Part shown: piece after piece, positions 4,418 through 54,259 of the stretch
Numbering within the stretch: the first letter of the stretch is position 1
Layout: the number at the start of each line of letters is the position of its first letter
Assembly (NCBI GenBank): GCA_028281785.1
Contig: JANQJG010000004.1
Location: forward strand, 1 to 64,000
Origin: Rhodospirillales bacterium
Lineage (GTDB): Bacteria > Pseudomonadota > Alphaproteobacteria > Rhodospirillales > Shumkoniaceae
Direction: 5' to 3'
Length of the DNA stretch: 64,000 nt
Notes under the pieces: generated by a model
What the model saw: the letters and a program-made list of their open reading frames with translations, nothing else
What the model was told of the DNA's origin: nothing
Databases searched by the model: none
Program-made: the position numbers and the translations under genes

Positions 4418-6100
<1,683 letters not shown>

Positions 6101-6108
6101 GGCCTGTT

Positions 6109-6747
6109 TTACCCTGCTTTCTTTAGCTCCTCCGCCTTCTCGCGGAGGACTTCCAGAAGGGCCGACACCTTGCCGCCTTGACGGCGGATGATGGAGCCGA
6201 AGTCGGAGCGTAACGTCGTTCCCATACTCACCCCTTCGACCACGAGATCGACGATCTTGGGCGTACCGTCGGCATCCTGGATCCGCCACTCCACCCGGAT
6301 GGGCTTGCTCTCCGAGCCGGGCACGAAGATCTCCGTAAACACGTTGGTTGTCGTGCCGTCGGACGTGGTTTTGAGCGTACGTAGCTCCTCACCGGTGTAT
6401 TGGGCGAAACGGTCGACATAGGCGGCGATGATGTAGTCCTCGAAGAGGTTTAGGTATTCATCACGCTCCTCGGGTGTCGCGCGTCGCCAGTTGGGACCGA
6501 GCACCCATTTGCCGATGGCGTTGACCGCGAAGTGGCCCGTGAACATTTCGCGAAACCTCTGGATGCGTTCGCCACGCGACACATCTTCCTCGGTCAGCGC
6601 GTGAACGGCCTGATCGGCCAAGGACTCGACCAGTGACCGGGCGTCCGTTCCCGAATCCGCGTTTGCCATCGTCGCAAGGGCGCATATTCCGAGAAGTACT
6701 GCTCCCCCAAGGGGCATCACGAGACACCGTTGAAGCATTCTGCCCAT
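6109..6747 (-). CDS. MlaC/Ttg2D family phospholipid-binding protein
   Basis: About 212 residues with an N-terminal signal peptide (hydrophobic LGGAVLLGICALATMANA). The mature part carries the MlaC fold features: an opening helix (SLVESLADQAVHAL), FREMFTGHFAVNAIGKWVLG, WRRATPEERDEYLNLFEDYI and the strands VEWRIQDADGTPKIVDLVVEGVSM split by turns. MlaC shuttles phospholipids between the outer-membrane MlaA complex and the inner-membrane MlaFEDB transporter; HpnM in hopanoid clusters is a paralogue. Neither mlaFED nor hopanoid genes are in this window, so which role applies is unknown. The start at 6747 is one of three in-frame ATGs. Confidence 0.85.
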   Translation of the reverse strand: MGRMLQRCLVMPLGGAVLLGICALATMANADSGTDARSLVESLADQAVHALTEEDVSRGERIQRFREMFTGHFAVNAIGKWVLGPNWRRATPEERDEYLNLFEDYIIAAYVDRFAQYTGEELRTLKTTSDGTTTNVFTEIFVPGSESKPIRVEWRIQDADGTPKIVDLVVEGVSMGTTLRSDFGSIIRRQGGKVSALLEVLREKAEELKKAG

Positions 6748-42578: not shown

Positions 42579-43253
42579 CTAGTGCCCGGTTTGGCGGACG
42601 ATCGCGGTCTCGATGTCGCGGGCCGCGCAGTAGGCGCCGAGCGACTCGGCGGCGAAATCGACATGGCGGGGCAAATCGGGGTCGTCGCCGAAGGCGATGA
42701 TGGCCATCAGCAGGTTCTCGGTGTCGAGGGTAATCATGCTCCGCTCGCTGTCGCTGGTCGGACTGCCGAAGGCGCCCTCGCAGTCGCTGAACACCGGCAG
42801 GTTCTCCAAGTTCATGGGGCCACGGCCGATGGCCTCATAGGTCTCGCCCGCCATGGCCTTCCGGAAAAGAATCGGCGGGCTCAGCGCGTCCACGCGAAAG
42901 GCGCCGATCGAATGTCCGCAGCGTAGCGAAACCAGGTTGTTCGTATCGACGACGGTGTTGATGCGATAGATGCCCTGGCCGCGGATCAGGCGGCGCATCA
43001 GCGCCTCCGAGGACACGCGATAACGGGCCGGGTCCTTACCCAGCGCGCGATAGGCCCGCCGGGCGGCGGCGATCTCTGGGACTTCCGAGGCGGGCCGACC
43101 GCCCAGGCTTTCCAAGCGGCGCGCCTCTTCCGCGTCGAGCGCCGTGCGCAGCGCCTCTTGCGTCTTCTCGACCGTCACCCGGCAGGAGATGCACCCGAGC
43201 GCCACGGTCACGCCCGCGGCCGAGAAGTCGTTGGAAATGGCAATCTCGATCAT
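42579..43253 (-). CDS. free-standing B3/B4 tRNA-binding domain protein
   Basis: A 224-residue protein of the B3/B4 domain, which in PheRS beta edits mischarged Tyr-tRNA(Phe). Visible blocks are YRALGKDPARYRVSSEALMRR and INTVVDTNNLVSLRCGHSIGA. Stand-alone copies are common in bacteria and are of unknown, possibly trans-editing, function. It lies upstream of psuG in the same direction with 13 bp between, so cotranscription is likely. Confidence 0.87.
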   Translation of the reverse strand: MIEIAISNDFSAAGVTVALGCISCRVTVEKTQEALRTALDAEEARRLESLGGRPASEVPEIAAARRAYRALGKDPARYRVSSEALMRRLIRGQGIYRINTVVDTNNLVSLRCGHSIGAFRVDALSPPILFRKAMAGETYEAIGRGPMNLENLPVFSDCEGAFGSPTSDSERSMITLDTENLLMAIIAFGDDPDLPRHVDFAAESLGAYCAARDIETAIVRQTGH

Positions 43254-43359
43254 GCCCGAACGAATCCGTAAATCGGAAACAATCCGGGCAATTCAGCATG
43301 GACGCTGACTTTTCGCAAGCACGGCCATGCGCCGCGCTCTTGGCGATATGCGATGACGC

Positions 43360-43392
43360 GGAGGGAGAGCCTCGGAGCGGGGCTCTCCCTCC
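43360..43392. terminator. perfect 12-bp hairpin after the esterase-like gene
   Basis: GGAGGGAGAGCC and GGCTCTCCCTCC pair perfectly around a nine-base loop. It lies 16 bp beyond the stop of the minus-strand gene ending at 43408. There is no T-run, so it may be a factor-dependent terminator or an RNA stabiliser. Confidence 0.7.
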
Positions 43393-43407
43393 CTCGATAT
43401 GCGAGGA

Positions 43408-44751
43408 TTACATCGCGGCGGCTTTCAGGAACTCACCGACCTCGAGCAGGATCATCTCGTTGTTGTCTCGCTTGCCGAGCGCGCGGCCGACCGAGAAGGG
43501 GAAGTTGTTGTCGTTGGCGACGATGATATGGGTGTCGTCGACCCGGTCGACATCCTCGATGGTGACGAAGGGGAAGGTGAAGCGTCCGTCCTCGCGCTTG
43601 CCGAGGCGCGCCACGCCGTTCGGGTCCTGGATGTCCAGAAGGTCGATATAGGCGACTTTTTTGACCGGCTGGCCGGGTTCGACGCCGGCGAAGTCGATCA
43701 TGTAGACGCGCTTGAACTGCGCCGGTTTCTTGAAGCAGTTGTCGGTCTGGTTGCTCTTGCAGGCCAGTTCGGCATCGCCTTGGCCGCTATCGCGTTCGAT
43801 GACCAGCCCGCGCGTCTCGTCGATCATGTTGAAATCGCCGATGGCATGGCTGTCGTCTTCGGCCGGGTAGAACCAGCTGCGGCCGGTCCATTCGCGCGTT
43901 CTTGCCTTCATCTCCAGGATGCGCAGCGCGGCGCGGCCGTCGGGCACGCGCTCCCAGTCACCCTTGTCGGCATGCCACAGCGGGCCTTCGAGCAGGGGGT
44001 AAAGCGTCTCACCGTCCATCGAGGAGGCGAAGCCCTCATAGCCGCGCGAGCGCTTGGCCGTATATTCGGGCAGCTTGCCGTCGGGGTTGGGCAGGCGCAG
44101 GGTGTAGTGGTCGGGCGATTTCACGACCTCGCCGTCGACGATCGTCTGGTGGAACTCCTTGACGACGCCGGTGTTGACGTCGGCGACGATCACGTAGGGG
44201 CCGAACTCGTCGCCGATAACGATCTCCTCGCCCACGACCTGGAAGCCCTCGATGTCGAAATCCGCGCCGGTCAAATAGCGCGTCTCGGATCCCTCCATGG
44301 TGATCAGGAAGGGAACGACCCCGTTCGGGTCGCTCAGGAAGACGGTCTTCTCGATGGTGATCGTCCCAGCCTCGAAATCGGGTGCGACGATATGGAAGAA
44401 CAGCATGGCGTCGGGCGAGTTGGCCATCGAGCCGAAGCCATTGTCCGTAAGCACGTAGTAGCGCTTGTCGTCGATTCGCTTGATGCCGGAGAAACCCTGG
44501 ACGGGCTGTCCCTTGAAGGGCAGCTCGGCGCCGTCGGTCGGCGCGGCATCGATGCGCGCGGGATTACCGCGTTCGGTGAACTTGCCGGAAACCTGCAGCG
44601 CCGGGGGCGCGTCGTCCGGCGCGGGGATCAGCGTTTCGGCCGGCAGAACGGCGTGGCCTGCCAGAACCGCGTCAAAACGCTTGGCTTCGTCGGCGTGGGC
44701 AAGGGTGGGGATGGCGGCGGCCAACGCCGCGGCGAGAAGGGTGTTACGCAT
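43408..44751 (-). CDS. secreted esterase-like (phytase-like family) protein
   Basis: A 447-residue periplasmic beta-propeller-like protein. It has a signal peptide MRNTLLAAALAAAIPTLAHA, then GFSGIKRIDDKRYYVLTDNGFGS, SRGYEGFASSMDGETLYPLLEG and AIGDFNMIDETRGLVIERDSG, all markers of the esterase-like-activity-of-phytase family. Substrates may be phosphoesters, but this family is mostly uncharacterised. The hairpin at 43360 follows it. Confidence 0.85.
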   Translation of the reverse strand: MRNTLLAAALAAAIPTLAHADEAKRFDAVLAGHAVLPAETLIPAPDDAPPALQVSGKFTERGNPARIDAAPTDGAELPFKGQPVQGFSGIKRIDDKRYYVLTDNGFGSMANSPDAMLFFHIVAPDFEAGTITIEKTVFLSDPNGVVPFLITMEGSETRYLTGADFDIEGFQVVGEEIVIGDEFGPYVIVADVNTGVVKEFHQTIVDGEVVKSPDHYTLRLPNPDGKLPEYTAKRSRGYEGFASSMDGETLYPLLEGPLWHADKGDWERVPDGRAALRILEMKARTREWTGRSWFYPAEDDSHAIGDFNMIDETRGLVIERDSGQGDAELACKSNQTDNCFKKPAQFKRVYMIDFAGVEPGQPVKKVAYIDLLDIQDPNGVARLGKREDGRFTFPFVTIEDVDRVDDTHIIVANDNNFPFSVGRALGKRDNNEMILLEVGEFLKAAAM

Positions 44752-44866
44752 GGTGGCCTCCTGACCGGTTGTCGCAATTCGTTCGCATTTACGATGCTTC
44801 TAGGAGGCCGCCGTGACTCTCACATGTCCGCTATGTGACAGTTGCGTGATCGGCGGGAGGAGGAGC

Positions 44867-45010
44867 CCTACTCGTTCTCGAAGAGCTTGAGCTTTCCCTC
44901 TCTTTCGTTCCAGTAGATCAGCTTGAACCTCCCGACCAGATTTTCCCTCGGGATGAAACCGCCCCTCTGGTAGCGGCTGTCCATGGGATCATCCCGGTCG
45001 CTGCCGCGCT
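44867..45010 (-). pseudogene. relic of a signal peptidase I C terminus
   Basis: On the minus strand a short open stretch reads GSDRDDPMDSRYQRGGFIP, then RENLVGRFKLIYWN and ends LFENE followed by TAG. This matches the C-terminal end of LepB: GDNRDNS-x-DSR-Y-G-x-VP-x-NLVGR. A TGA lies in frame at 45011-45013, and no N-terminal part with the catalytic Ser or Lys is present. The GDN box is altered (GSD). It is a truncated remnant, not a functional peptidase; translation from the internal ATG at 44983 would give only 38 residues. Confidence 0.7.
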
Positions 45011-45063
45011 GTCATATCAGCTCGGGGAGCGTTTTCTGCTCGGACGGGGAAGAAAAGCTGCCG

Positions 45064-46128
45064 TCAGGCCCGCACGACCTGTGCGAGGTTCAGGCCGGTC
45101 TCGTCGACCACCTTGTTGCGCCCGGTGCTTTTCGCGCGGTAGAGGGCTTGGTCGGCGCGGTGGACGAAGGTCTCACGGCCCTCGCCAAAGGCATACTGGG
45201 CCACGCCGATCGAGATCGTGACGCCGCCGAAGTCCTCTCCCGTCCGGCGATTCTTGAGCTTGCGCGAGGCCAGGCCCTTGCGGATCTGCTCGGCCAGAAT
45301 CACCGCGTCGCGCAAGCCCGTCTGCGGCAGGATGACAGCGAACTCCTCGCCGCCATAGCGCGCCGGCGTGTCGCGCCCCTTCACGCACTCGGCCAGGGAT
45401 CGCGCGACGATCTTCAGCACCTCGTCGCCAATGGTGTGGCCGAAGGTATCGTTGAAGGCCTTGAAGCGGTCGATATCGGCCAGCAGGATCGACAGCCTCT
45501 CGCCCTCCTTTTTGGCGTGGTGTATGGCGTCCCGAAGCCTGAGATCGAAGTACTTGCGGTTGCCGATTCCGGTCAGGGCATCGGTCATGGTTTCTCGCTG
45601 GGCCTCCGCGAGGCTGCGTTTGAGTTCACCGATCTCCGTCGATGACTGATCCAGCCGGCCTTCCAGCGACCGCGTCTTTCCCGCGACTTCCAGCGTCTCT
45701 TCCAGAATGCTCTGCACCAGTGTGGCGATCTCGTCGGTCGCGTCCTGGTCCTGGATCTGGCTGGAATAGCGCTCCAGGCTTTGCCCGTACTCGCCCTGGG
45801 TCTTACGCGCATCGCTCACGCATTCGAGGACGCGGGCGAGCGTTCGCTCGATGCGGTGGGTCGTTCGGGTAATCTCGGCGATGGTCGTCCGATCCTGGTC
45901 CTTCGGGAAGAATTGGAGACGAATCTCTTCGGTTCGCTCCGGCGTGAAGGCGACGCCGTTGTCGAGCATTCGGTCCAGCACATCCGTCAGACGGCGATTT
46001 GTCCCCGCGAAATAGGTATACCAGATCTCATAGTTGGAAGGAGTCGCCGGGATGCCGAGACGCGCCATCATGTCATTGGCGGAACGAGCTTGAGCGTCGA
46101 CCTGATCCTCACGGTCCTGGTGGGTCAT
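45064..46128 (-). CDS. diguanylate cyclase (GGDEF-domain protein)
   Basis: About 354 residues. The first 170 are helical, with heptad-like stretches around 130-180 (ETLEVAGKTRSLEGRLDQSS), suited to dimerisation. The GGDEF domain is at about 180-345: DALTGIGNRKYFDLRL, DIDRFKAFNDTFGHTIGD and active-site GGEEF at 259-263. The inhibitory site RxxD is replaced by KGRD (K250), so product inhibition may be weak. No transmembrane segment is present. Start MTHQDRED is preferred over the ATG at 46146. Confidence 0.92.
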   Translation of the reverse strand: MTHQDREDQVDAQARSANDMMARLGIPATPSNYEIWYTYFAGTNRRLTDVLDRMLDNGVAFTPERTEEIRLQFFPKDQDRTTIAEITRTTHRIERTLARVLECVSDARKTQGEYGQSLERYSSQIQDQDATDEIATLVQSILEETLEVAGKTRSLEGRLDQSSTEIGELKRSLAEAQRETMTDALTGIGNRKYFDLRLRDAIHHAKKEGERLSILLADIDRFKAFNDTFGHTIGDEVLKIVARSLAECVKGRDTPARYGGEEFAVILPQTGLRDAVILAEQIRKGLASRKLKNRRTGEDFGGVTISIGVAQYAFGEGRETFVHRADQALYRAKSTGRNKVVDETGLNLAQVVRA

Positions 46129-46264
46129 AAACGCGTCCCAAATCAACTAAGCCTCAGTCATCCGGGTCTCGCGGCGTCCGTGCGGCGTTGCTTGACGCGC
46201 TTGCACCCGGATGTCAGATGCAATCTTATTCCAAATTGGTTAGCAGATTATTATCTTTTGAAAC

Positions 46265-46690
<426 letters not shown>

Positions 46691-46701
46691 TTAGCGGGGT
46701 T

Positions 46702-46744
46702 GAATGGTGGGCGCGGCTGGGATTGAACCAGCGACTTCTCGCGT
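46702..46744 (-). repeat. 43-bp duplicate of the tRNA-Val 3' half (putative attL/attR)
   Basis: Exact copy of 48396-48438. It covers the 3' half of tRNA-Val(CAC) from inside the anticodon loop to CCA plus three bases, in the same orientation as the intact gene. A direct repeat of a tRNA 3' end is the mark of integrase-mediated insertion. No complete tRNA can form here. Confidence 0.85.
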
Positions 46745-46794
46745 CCGGCCTTGGCTTAGAGGCGTATGACAGTGTTTTCTTGAGGGTTGCCGAC

Positions 46795-48135
46795 TCAGCT
46801 TACGGACGGTTTCGGCTTTAGATTGAGGGCCTCGAGCGCTTCATCGATCGGAATGAATAAATTAAGTCCCTCGGCGTACCGACCAACCACCTTCTGCACA
46901 CTGATACCAATCACATTTCCGTTTTCGTCAAGTAAAGGTCCACCACTGTTGCCCGGTGATATTGCTGCGTCGGATTGAATGAAAGACAGATTGGTTCTCG
47001 GGTCAACCCGTATCGCACTGACGACACCCGTGGTTACCGTGGATTGAAGGTTTTCCCTAACGGGAGTGCCGATCACATAAACTCTTTCAGGTGGCGAGGG
47101 TCGGGTCGTCCTAACCGGAAGATACAGGGGCGTTCGAAGGGGGATTTTGATCAAGGAAACATCTCGGGCCTCACTGATAGCCAAAACCGCACCTTCGACT
47201 TCAACGCCGTTATTCAATATGATGCTCACCCTGTTTGACTGACCGACAACATGTTGATTGGTTAAGACCAATCCGTCCTCGCTAATCACGAACCCCGATC
47301 CGTGTCCAAGGCCGATTCTCACTGTGACGACAGAAGGGAGGATGCGATCGACACGGTTTTCAAGGCGCCTTGAGCTCAATTCCTTTGCCGAAAAGTACCT
47401 TACCGGGTTGGATTGCTCCGCGACCTCTACTTGGACCTTTCCCCTCGCAATATCGACAAACTCCATCGATGTGAGCAGGTTTTCAGATGCGATCGCGAAT
47501 GCTTCGTGAAATGCCAAGATAATACCTTGTCGTTTAGGCTTAACCTGCAAGTAGTAACCTCTCGTGCTTGTCGTGAGTATCTCACGCTGCTGAATTGTAG
47601 AAAATATTGTCCATTCGACGTCAATAAAAACCTCTCCCGAGTATTCATTGAGAGGCCGGCCATCCCACCAATGATGAGCCTCACAGAAGTTGCTTTTTAT
47701 CTCGGTAATTCTCGCCCCAATGAGGTATTCCGCGGAGGCTACGGCCTCACCACGGCCAAACAAGTCCTTTGGGCTTCCGGAAATATTCAAGCCTTTCGAA
47801 CTCAAGGCCTGATGGAAGATCTCACCAAGCTCCGTGCTCCAGTTGCCAAGTACCGACGTGCCCGTTCCCCACTCAATGGTGGATTTGCTTTGGTGCCTGT
47901 AATTGCAAAGATGACCTTCCGCGCCCTCCACTCCCTCTGCGGGGTAGTGGCCTATCGTTGTTCCGCGCTTGATGTTTGCAATCACCTTGCTGAGCGCGAA
48001 GGATGCCTGTCTTTCGGTTGCTTCCTCTATTTCGATGAGATCGTTCTGCTCGACCACTGGGATGTCCAACCTGGAAGTTGTGTTACAGGCACCCGCCAAG
48101 GCGAGAATCGCTACGGCCACGAATACACGTTTCAT
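46795..48135 (-). CDS. trypsin-like (S1C) serine protease, lipoprotein-like
   Basis: A 446-residue protein. The N terminus MKRVFVAVAILALAGAC ends in a lipobox-like sequence with C17. Residues 30-260 are an extra domain of unknown type. The protease domain (about 262-440) has a full triad: H295 in TNQHVV, D325 in EARDVSLIK and S397 in GNSGGPLL. No PDZ domain follows, unlike DegP. Lower GC and rare codons compared with neighbours point to acquisition with the tRNA-Val island. An inverted repeat GATTGCA-g-TGCAATC at 48230-48244 lies upstream. Confidence 0.88.
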   Translation of the reverse strand: MKRVFVAVAILALAGACNTTSRLDIPVVEQNDLIEIEEATERQASFALSKVIANIKRGTTIGHYPAEGVEGAEGHLCNYRHQSKSTIEWGTGTSVLGNWSTELGEIFHQALSSKGLNISGSPKDLFGRGEAVASAEYLIGARITEIKSNFCEAHHWWDGRPLNEYSGEVFIDVEWTIFSTIQQREILTTSTRGYYLQVKPKRQGIILAFHEAFAIASENLLTSMEFVDIARGKVQVEVAEQSNPVRYFSAKELSSRRLENRVDRILPSVVTVRIGLGHGSGFVISEDGLVLTNQHVVGQSNRVSIILNNGVEVEGAVLAISEARDVSLIKIPLRTPLYLPVRTTRPSPPERVYVIGTPVRENLQSTVTTGVVSAIRVDPRTNLSFIQSDAAISPGNSGGPLLDENGNVIGISVQKVVGRYAEGLNLFIPIDEALEALNLKPKPSVS

Positions 48136-48229
48136 GTTAAATCCCCCAACGGCATTCTTTGTACGAGCAAAACATTGCAGCGCATTGAGTCCTCATGCGA
48201 GGCGCAGCACCCTGATAGTTTACAATAAA

Positions 48230-48244
48230 GATTGCAGTGCAATC
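48230..48244. promoter_or_regulatory. palindrome upstream of the island protease gene
   Basis: GATTGCA-g-TGCAATC, perfect 7-bp arms with one central base, about 95 bp before the protease ATG. It is a plausible operator, though no regulator gene is on the island. Confidence 0.35.
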
Positions 48245-48395
48245 CAGCCGGCTTGGGCTAGTGGCTTCCACATCTTCAAGCGCGATTCATTGAGCTTCGT
48301 TTGTTCTGAAAGGTCCTGCCCAGCCCCGGCGGTTCCCCGCACACGTGACTTGAAGGAGAATTGTATCGAACAAGCTCTGCTGAGGATGGCCGGGA

Positions 48396-48438
48396 GAATG
48401 GTGGGCGCGGCTGGGATTGAACCAGCGACTTCTCGCGT
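48396..48438 (-). repeat. 43-bp direct repeat copy within tRNA-Val
   Basis: Identical to 46702-46744. It ends within the anticodon loop of the intact tRNA, a common crossover point for tyrosine integrases that target tRNA genes. Confidence 0.85.
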
Positions 48439-48473
48439 GTGAGGCGAGCGCTCTCCCGCTGAGCTACGCGCCC
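48399..48473 (-). tRNA. tRNA-Val(CAC)
   Basis: The minus strand reads GGGCGCG-TA-GCTC-AGCGGGA-GAGC-G-CTCGC, anticodon loop CTCACAC, GCGAG, variable AAGTC, T arm GCTGG-TTCAATC-CCAGC, then CGCGCCC-A-CCA. All four stems pair perfectly, and CCA is encoded. The anticodon CAC is complementary to bases 48439-48441. Confidence 0.97.
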
Positions 48474-53402: not shown

Positions 53403-53596
53403 CGGTCCGGACCGGTCGAGTTCTTCCGCTGACGGTCGGCCGTTCTTGACGGCGACCACGCAAAGGTTCCCGGCGGCCGGCGTGGCTTCGGCGGCAGCGA
53501 CCCGGATTCCGAATCCGAACAGCCACGCTCAGCAGGACCTGAGACACCGGAAACAGCCGCATTCCTTGCCCGCCAGTGATGATACGAAGATGCGTT

Positions 53597-54259
53597 TCAG
53601 ACTTGTTCCTTTTCCGCCTCCTTGATCGTGATGTCGAACTGCGCGGCCGCCGCGCTTGCGGCGGATTCCAGGTTTTCCTCCGAAAAGAACTTTTCCCATA
53701 CAAGTGGCCAACCTGCTCCCAAGGCCAATGATTGGACAACGACATTGCTCGTGAGAGGAACATCCCCGGTAATACTCAAGGGAGCGCCCGGCAGCCCAAG
53801 TTGCCCGAGAAACCCGAATATCCCGGCCGTCACGCCTCCTATGAATACCGAGCTGAGGATGAGTCTCCACCCACTGAGCGCCTTCTCCCTTTCAACATCA
53901 GCTAGTCTTGTTCGCGCCTCAATAATAGCGATCTCCGATTTATTTATAGCTTCAGTAAAAGAAGCTATACGTTTTCTCTCCTCTTCAATTGCCTGTTTGA
54001 GAGCCTGTAAATCAAATTGACCTTGTTGATGTTTGATGTTCATATTGACGTAGTCGTCAAGAATCTTCTGGCGGTTCTTTAGATTTTCCCTCCTAACCGC
54101 GTTTCTCTCCACCAGGTTATCTACGTTCCGGCTAAGCGTTTTGGCCTTGGCGCCGGCCTCGAGCCCTTTCACAGCTACTGCTCGTTGTGAGATGTAGGCG
54201 GCTAACGCACCGAAAACAAACGACAGAAGCAGCACCAACCAGAGTGATAGTTGCATCAT
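53597..54259 (-). CDS. coiled-coil membrane protein, unknown function
   Basis: A 220-residue protein: an N-terminal helix (SLWLVLLLSFVFGALAAYI), a long charged coiled coil (about 30-125, e.g. QALKQAIEEERKRIASFTEAI), a second hydrophobic segment (about 130-155, LILSSVFIGGVTAGIFGFLG) and a C-terminal helical tail. Codon use is AT-richer than in the flanking genes, which suggests lateral acquisition. No family is recognised. Confidence 0.7.
   Translation of the reverse strand: MMQLSLWLVLLLSFVFGALAAYISQRAVAVKGLEAGAKAKTLSRNVDNLVERNAVRRENLKNRQKILDDYVNMNIKHQQGQFDLQALKQAIEEERKRIASFTEAINKSEIAIIEARTRLADVEREKALSGWRLILSSVFIGGVTAGIFGFLGQLGLPGAPLSITGDVPLTSNVVVQSLALGAGWPLVWEKFFSEENLESAASAAAAQFDITIKEAEKEQV

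Follow-up and report, generated by a model that had tools for sequence, protein, structure and literature searches.

A 1.7-kb protease-carrying segment between direct repeats of tRNA-Val(CAC) in a Rhodospirillales genome, probably a reduced integrative element

Organization of the locus

The 64-kb window analysed here (positions 1 to 64,000 of contig JANQJG010000004.1 from a Rhodospirillales bacterium) contains a single tRNA gene, the putative integration target tRNA-Val(CAC), which was located by ARAGORN and Rfam at 48399..48473 on the minus strand; no other CAC copy of a tRNA-Val gene was found in the assembly. A 43-bp sequence, made up of the last 40 nt of this gene plus 3 nt, is found within the intact copy at 48396..48438 (minus strand) and again, letter for letter, at 46702..46744 (minus strand), with a start-to-start spacing of 1694 bp. 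Read in the direction of the tRNA, the copied stretch starts at ACGCGAG, directly 3' of the CAC anticodon, and ends with the encoded CCA followed by TTC; the displaced copy lacks the 5' 35 nt of the gene. These coordinates bear out the first-pass annotation, which had described an exact, same-orientation copy of the tRNA-Val 3' half 1.69 kb from the gene, with the break inside the anticodon loop. With up to 3 mismatches tolerated, the 43-bp sequence is present twice in the 64 kb and no further copies are found; no other tRNA-Val fragment occurs in the window, and 0 occurrences of the repeat are expected in shuffled sequence. An intact tRNA gene and a displaced 3' fragment in one orientation form the arrangement typical of tRNA-integrated islands, and the two repeats are referred to below as att-like copies.

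The interval between them, hereafter the mini-island interval (46745..48395, 1651 bp), has a G+C content of 51.6% versus 64.4% for the window, and the compositional step coincides exactly with the interval. The only credible gene that it contains encodes a 446-aa protein with lipoprotein and trypsin features (46795..48135, minus strand), whose GC3 is 0.56 versus 0.75-0.88 in six flanking genes. No integrase gene is present in the interval, and searches of its non-coding parts for integrase remnants returned chance-level matches only (best E 0.08). The earlier description of an AT-richer segment carrying a single lipoprotein-like protease and no integrase is thus confirmed, the low G+C being in part a trait of the protease gene family. 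Another local G+C dip (53%) is found outside the mini-island, at window positions 53500-53999.

The protease and its relatives

The cargo protein has an N terminus of the lipoprotein type, in which Cys17 is invariant in 19 relatives; the first 200 residues of the protein belong to no assigned family. A Trypsin_2 domain lies at the C-terminal end (Pfam E 2e-32), and the catalytic triad His295/Asp325/Ser397 is present in a 19-sequence alignment. The predicted structure has a mean pLDDT of 68.7; when residues 254-440 were used as the query of a fold search, they matched the HtrA proteases MucD and DegQ with Z about 23. The protein has the HtrA-like trypsin domain and triad of the HtrA/Deg group; the C-terminal PDZ domain of that group is missing, since Pfam detects none and the protein stops directly after the trypsin domain. 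The differences that separate the gene from its closest relatives amount to 76-81% at synonymous sites and 18% at non-synonymous sites; judged from its sequence, the gene evolves as coding sequence. The product is a putative lipoprotein protease that would act at the outer membrane or in the periplasm. An anti-phage role was also considered and is not supported, as the PADLOC matches are nearly confined to the trypsin part of the protein (residues 252-436).

Homologues with 30-48% identity are found in other genera of the order, and the two closest relatives (71% and 70% identity) come from Proteobacteria MAGs. In both of these the locus order is purE - GGDEF - protease, purE being named from a reading of the translation, and the site is an ordinary chromosomal one unrelated to tRNA-Val. 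Their protease genes have 55.6% and 57.1% G+C versus 66-67% in the surroundings; because they too are AT-richer than their neighbours, the low G+C of the window protease gene points to recent transfer only in part. None of 20 protease relatives fetched from order-level genomes adjoins tRNA-Val, and one of the 20 has a tRNA-Leu about 5.5 kb from the gene, in a region of ~19 kb. The idea that this protease family is a habitual passenger of tRNA genes was rejected, given 0 of 20 by tRNA-Val and the purE-GGDEF position of the two closest members. In the genome of the 70%-identical protease relative, a tRNA-Val(GAC)-type 3' fragment was observed beside a gene for a 404-aa tyrosine integrase (L150, positions 4913-6218, G200:C109).

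Gene order and the empty site in related genomes

In the window, the gene order is B3_4 gene (42579-43253, Pfam), phytase-like gene, GGDEF gene, orphan brnA, left repeat copy, protease, tRNA-Val, gph, glmU and glmS; the first genes and the HAD-type gph were named by Pfam, glmU and glmS from their translations. In G001, a genome that shares the family but not the genus, the homologue of the B3_4 gene, one tRNA-Val(CAC), gph and glmU are directly adjacent, with no interval, and the 16 kb read in this genome contain no second tRNA fragment and no protease at the locus. In three further members of the family (G002, G003 and G004) different DNA surrounds tRNA-Val(CAC), no tRNA fragment was found nearby and the protease is absent from the locus. 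Because it is absent at the locus in all four genomes (G001, G002, G003, G004), the 1.7-kb segment is, on the evidence of this comparison, not ancestral to the family. The comparison relatives share about 70% nucleotide identity with the window and are too distant for a base-exact junction.

The first-pass annotation had suggested a search of relatives for an empty site with one tRNA 3' half. Such a site was indeed found in G001, as a gene order with one tRNA copy; as this genome belongs to another genus and is about 70% identical, we infer the empty site from it rather than read it to the base. Two observations that the same annotation had named as contrary to an island did not materialize: the two repeats flanking this interval are not shared by the relatives, nor does a tandem duplication of the tRNA fit, because the second copy is without its first 35 nt and unrelated DNA makes up the spacer.

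tRNA-Val(CAC) as an integration site across the order

A pattern scan for the tRNA segment, covering 150 genomes of the order, gave a match in 70 of them, eight of which have two copies. Pairs on the same contig span 27.3 kb in G028, 16.5 kb in G048, 10.1 kb in G070 and 1.69 kb in the window, and fragments on separate contigs occur in G003, G024, G053, G059, G010 and G072. In the fragments of relatives that were aligned, the start lies within the anticodon loop and precedes that of the window fragment by about 5 nt. Most of the tRNA-Val(CAC) islands inspected contain tyrosine integrases: in G048, G003, G024, G059 and G053 a gene for a PF00589 protein adjoins the distal fragment on its inner side, and in G070 and G003 one lies next to the tRNA; a simple motif search found no integrase in the G028 stretches. 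Seen against these islands, the 43-bp repeat in the window is best interpreted as the att pair of an integrated element. One of these islands (L077, G003:C50:38000-56000), with a 404-aa integrase abutting the tRNA, carries a cytosine DNA methyltransferase, recognized by reading the translation, and resembles a defence island.

The scan also bears on the possibility that the tRNA 3' half was partly duplicated by ordinary recombination, with no mobile element involved. A segmental duplication also yields a perfect repeat and would account for the absence of an integrase; however, the duplicated part has its limits precisely at the anticodon loop and immediately beyond CCA, like that of the integrase-bearing islands of relatives, and the spacer has a foreign composition and has its own relatives elsewhere, in the chromosomes of other bacteria. 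Such an origin is regarded as very improbable, even if the comparison of flanks does not clearly favour integration. In that comparison, the 3' flank of the intact copy shows a weak likeness to G002, G004 and G029, each score being reached by 2-3 of 60 shuffles, and the flank of the displaced copy shows a weak likeness, reached by 1 of 60 shuffles and including 6 further identical bases, to a displaced tRNA fragment on another contig of the same genome (C45); the two likenesses conflict with each other and are too faint to be relied on. Under the classical model, element DNA follows the intact tRNA on its 3' side, and native DNA lies beyond the displaced copy. The likeness of the intact copy's flank to G002, G004 and G029 is unexpected, since that model makes this flank element DNA.

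The C45 fragment, of about 55 nt, bounds an island of the standard type that occupies 22.9 kb at tRNA-Val(GAC) in the genome of the window (G000 contig C45, 2066-25004; L078, L079). This island encodes a 436-aa tyrosine integrase (Arm-DNA-bind_3/Phage_integrase) near the distal fragment. The tRNA-Val(GAC) of C45 was considered as the source of the window fragment and rejected, as the anticodon-stem part of the fragment matches CAC and not GAC.

Origin of the mini-island

A tyrosine integrase recombines the chromosomal tRNA gene with an attP site whose sequence corresponds to the 3' part of that gene; the copy brought by the element then makes the gene whole, and the native 3' part ends up at the far end of the element. 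The anticodon loop is an established crossover sublocation of such enzymes (PMC4383910). The arrangement observed here is the one that this mechanism predicts. The mini-island is very probably an integrative element targeted to tRNA-Val(CAC) that has lost its integrase and has been reduced to its att sites and one cargo gene. This explanation is supported by the exact repeat, the break in the anticodon loop, the compositional step and the empty-site order of G001, together with the comparable tRNA-Val(CAC) fragments accompanied by integrases, the C45 island and the position of the protease relatives at an unrelated locus. Against it count the start of the window fragment about 5 nt later than in the other tRNA-Val(CAC) islands, the absence of an integrase remnant and the conflicting likenesses of the two flanks. 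A mobile element would have entered tRNA-Val(CAC) through a site-specific exchange in the 43-bp segment that its attP and the tRNA 3' half have in common; integration would have restored the tRNA gene and displaced the native 3' half to 46702-46744. The integrase gene would have been lost afterwards, most likely through an internal deletion, leaving two att-like sites and one putative lipoprotein protease gene. We infer that an integrase made this particular junction and that it was formerly encoded in cis. The tRNA mini-island proposed in the first-pass annotation is in this way sustained by the G001 order and by the integrase-bearing islands that occupy this tRNA in other genomes of the order, and its wording "very small or decayed" remains a fair description, the data fitting either.

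The unit may also have been a minimal, non-autonomous element of the cis-mobilizable type, excised and inserted in trans by the tRNA-Val integrase of another element. This origin, possible but rather unlikely, is kept in consideration because both copies are identical and the cargo gene is intact. The att-like copies share 100% identity over 43 bp and the cargo is conserved, so that neither looks decayed; the unit is compact, with no residual non-coding tract, and genes for several tyrosine integrases exist in the genome, including one at tRNA-Val(GAC). On the other hand, the tRNA-Val(GAC) island has another core, and only this one copy is known: none at useful identity was found in the own genome, in relatives, in viral contigs, in phages or in plasmids. 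Deletion of most of a larger island is the simpler reading. A phage origin was rejected, as the viral-contig scan revealed neither a relative nor any sequence identical to the tRNA segment over 40 nt, and the matches in phages and plasmids are confined to the trypsin domain.

Relation to known elements

CIMEs are defined as elements that have kept their att sites and lost the genes for integration and transfer (PMC5704250). The mini-island resembles them in retaining attL/attR-like sites without integration or transfer genes and in carrying cargo only; it differs in its size of 1.7 kb and in that no parent ICE/IME, remnant or accretion partner was found. With the tRNA islands of the Islander type (PMC4383910) it shares the intact tRNA, the same-orientation 3' fragment and the anticodon-loop crossover class, whereas Islander demands an internal integrase gene, which the interval does not have. 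At the ssrA gene of Dehalococcoides, 15 units without an integration module were described and suggested to be cis-mobilizable (PMC3146451). These units likewise carry only cargo, between an RNA gene and the repeat of its 3' end, but they stand in tandem arrays with module-bearing islands and use serine recombinases at ssrA, whereas the mini-island is a lone unit at tRNA-Val.

The mini-island is an ordinary kind of tRNA-targeted island, notable only for its small size. It offers a clean, small case of what the loss of an integrase leaves behind at a tRNA integration hotspot, of the sort that island finders demanding an integrase miss, and is of practical use mainly for testing whether att-flanked units with a single gene are mobilised in trans. 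One can imagine from it a stable class of such passengers, each with only two tRNA-derived att sites and a cargo gene and spreading with the tRNA-targeting integrases of resident islands; this is considered quite improbable.

DNA to the left of the repeat

The 3.4 kb that separate the B3_4 gene from the left copy (43260-46702), comprising the phytase-like, GGDEF and brnA genes, are missing at the orthologous site of G001, and none of the four relatives in the family has the phytase-like gene. This stretch possibly represents older layers at the same hotspot. The 1.69-kb unit would then be the newest layer at the edge of a larger array whose older insertions lie further left, a proposal that agrees with the different DNA around the same tRNA in G002, G003 and G004; it is nevertheless held to be unlikely, as the window has no additional tRNA-Val fragment and the left DNA has a near-host composition. 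The brnA gene, for which no BrnT-like partner was noticed in the adjoining DNA, encodes an orphan BrnA-type antitoxin (46419-46673, Pfam E 2e-20) and lies just outside the left repeat.
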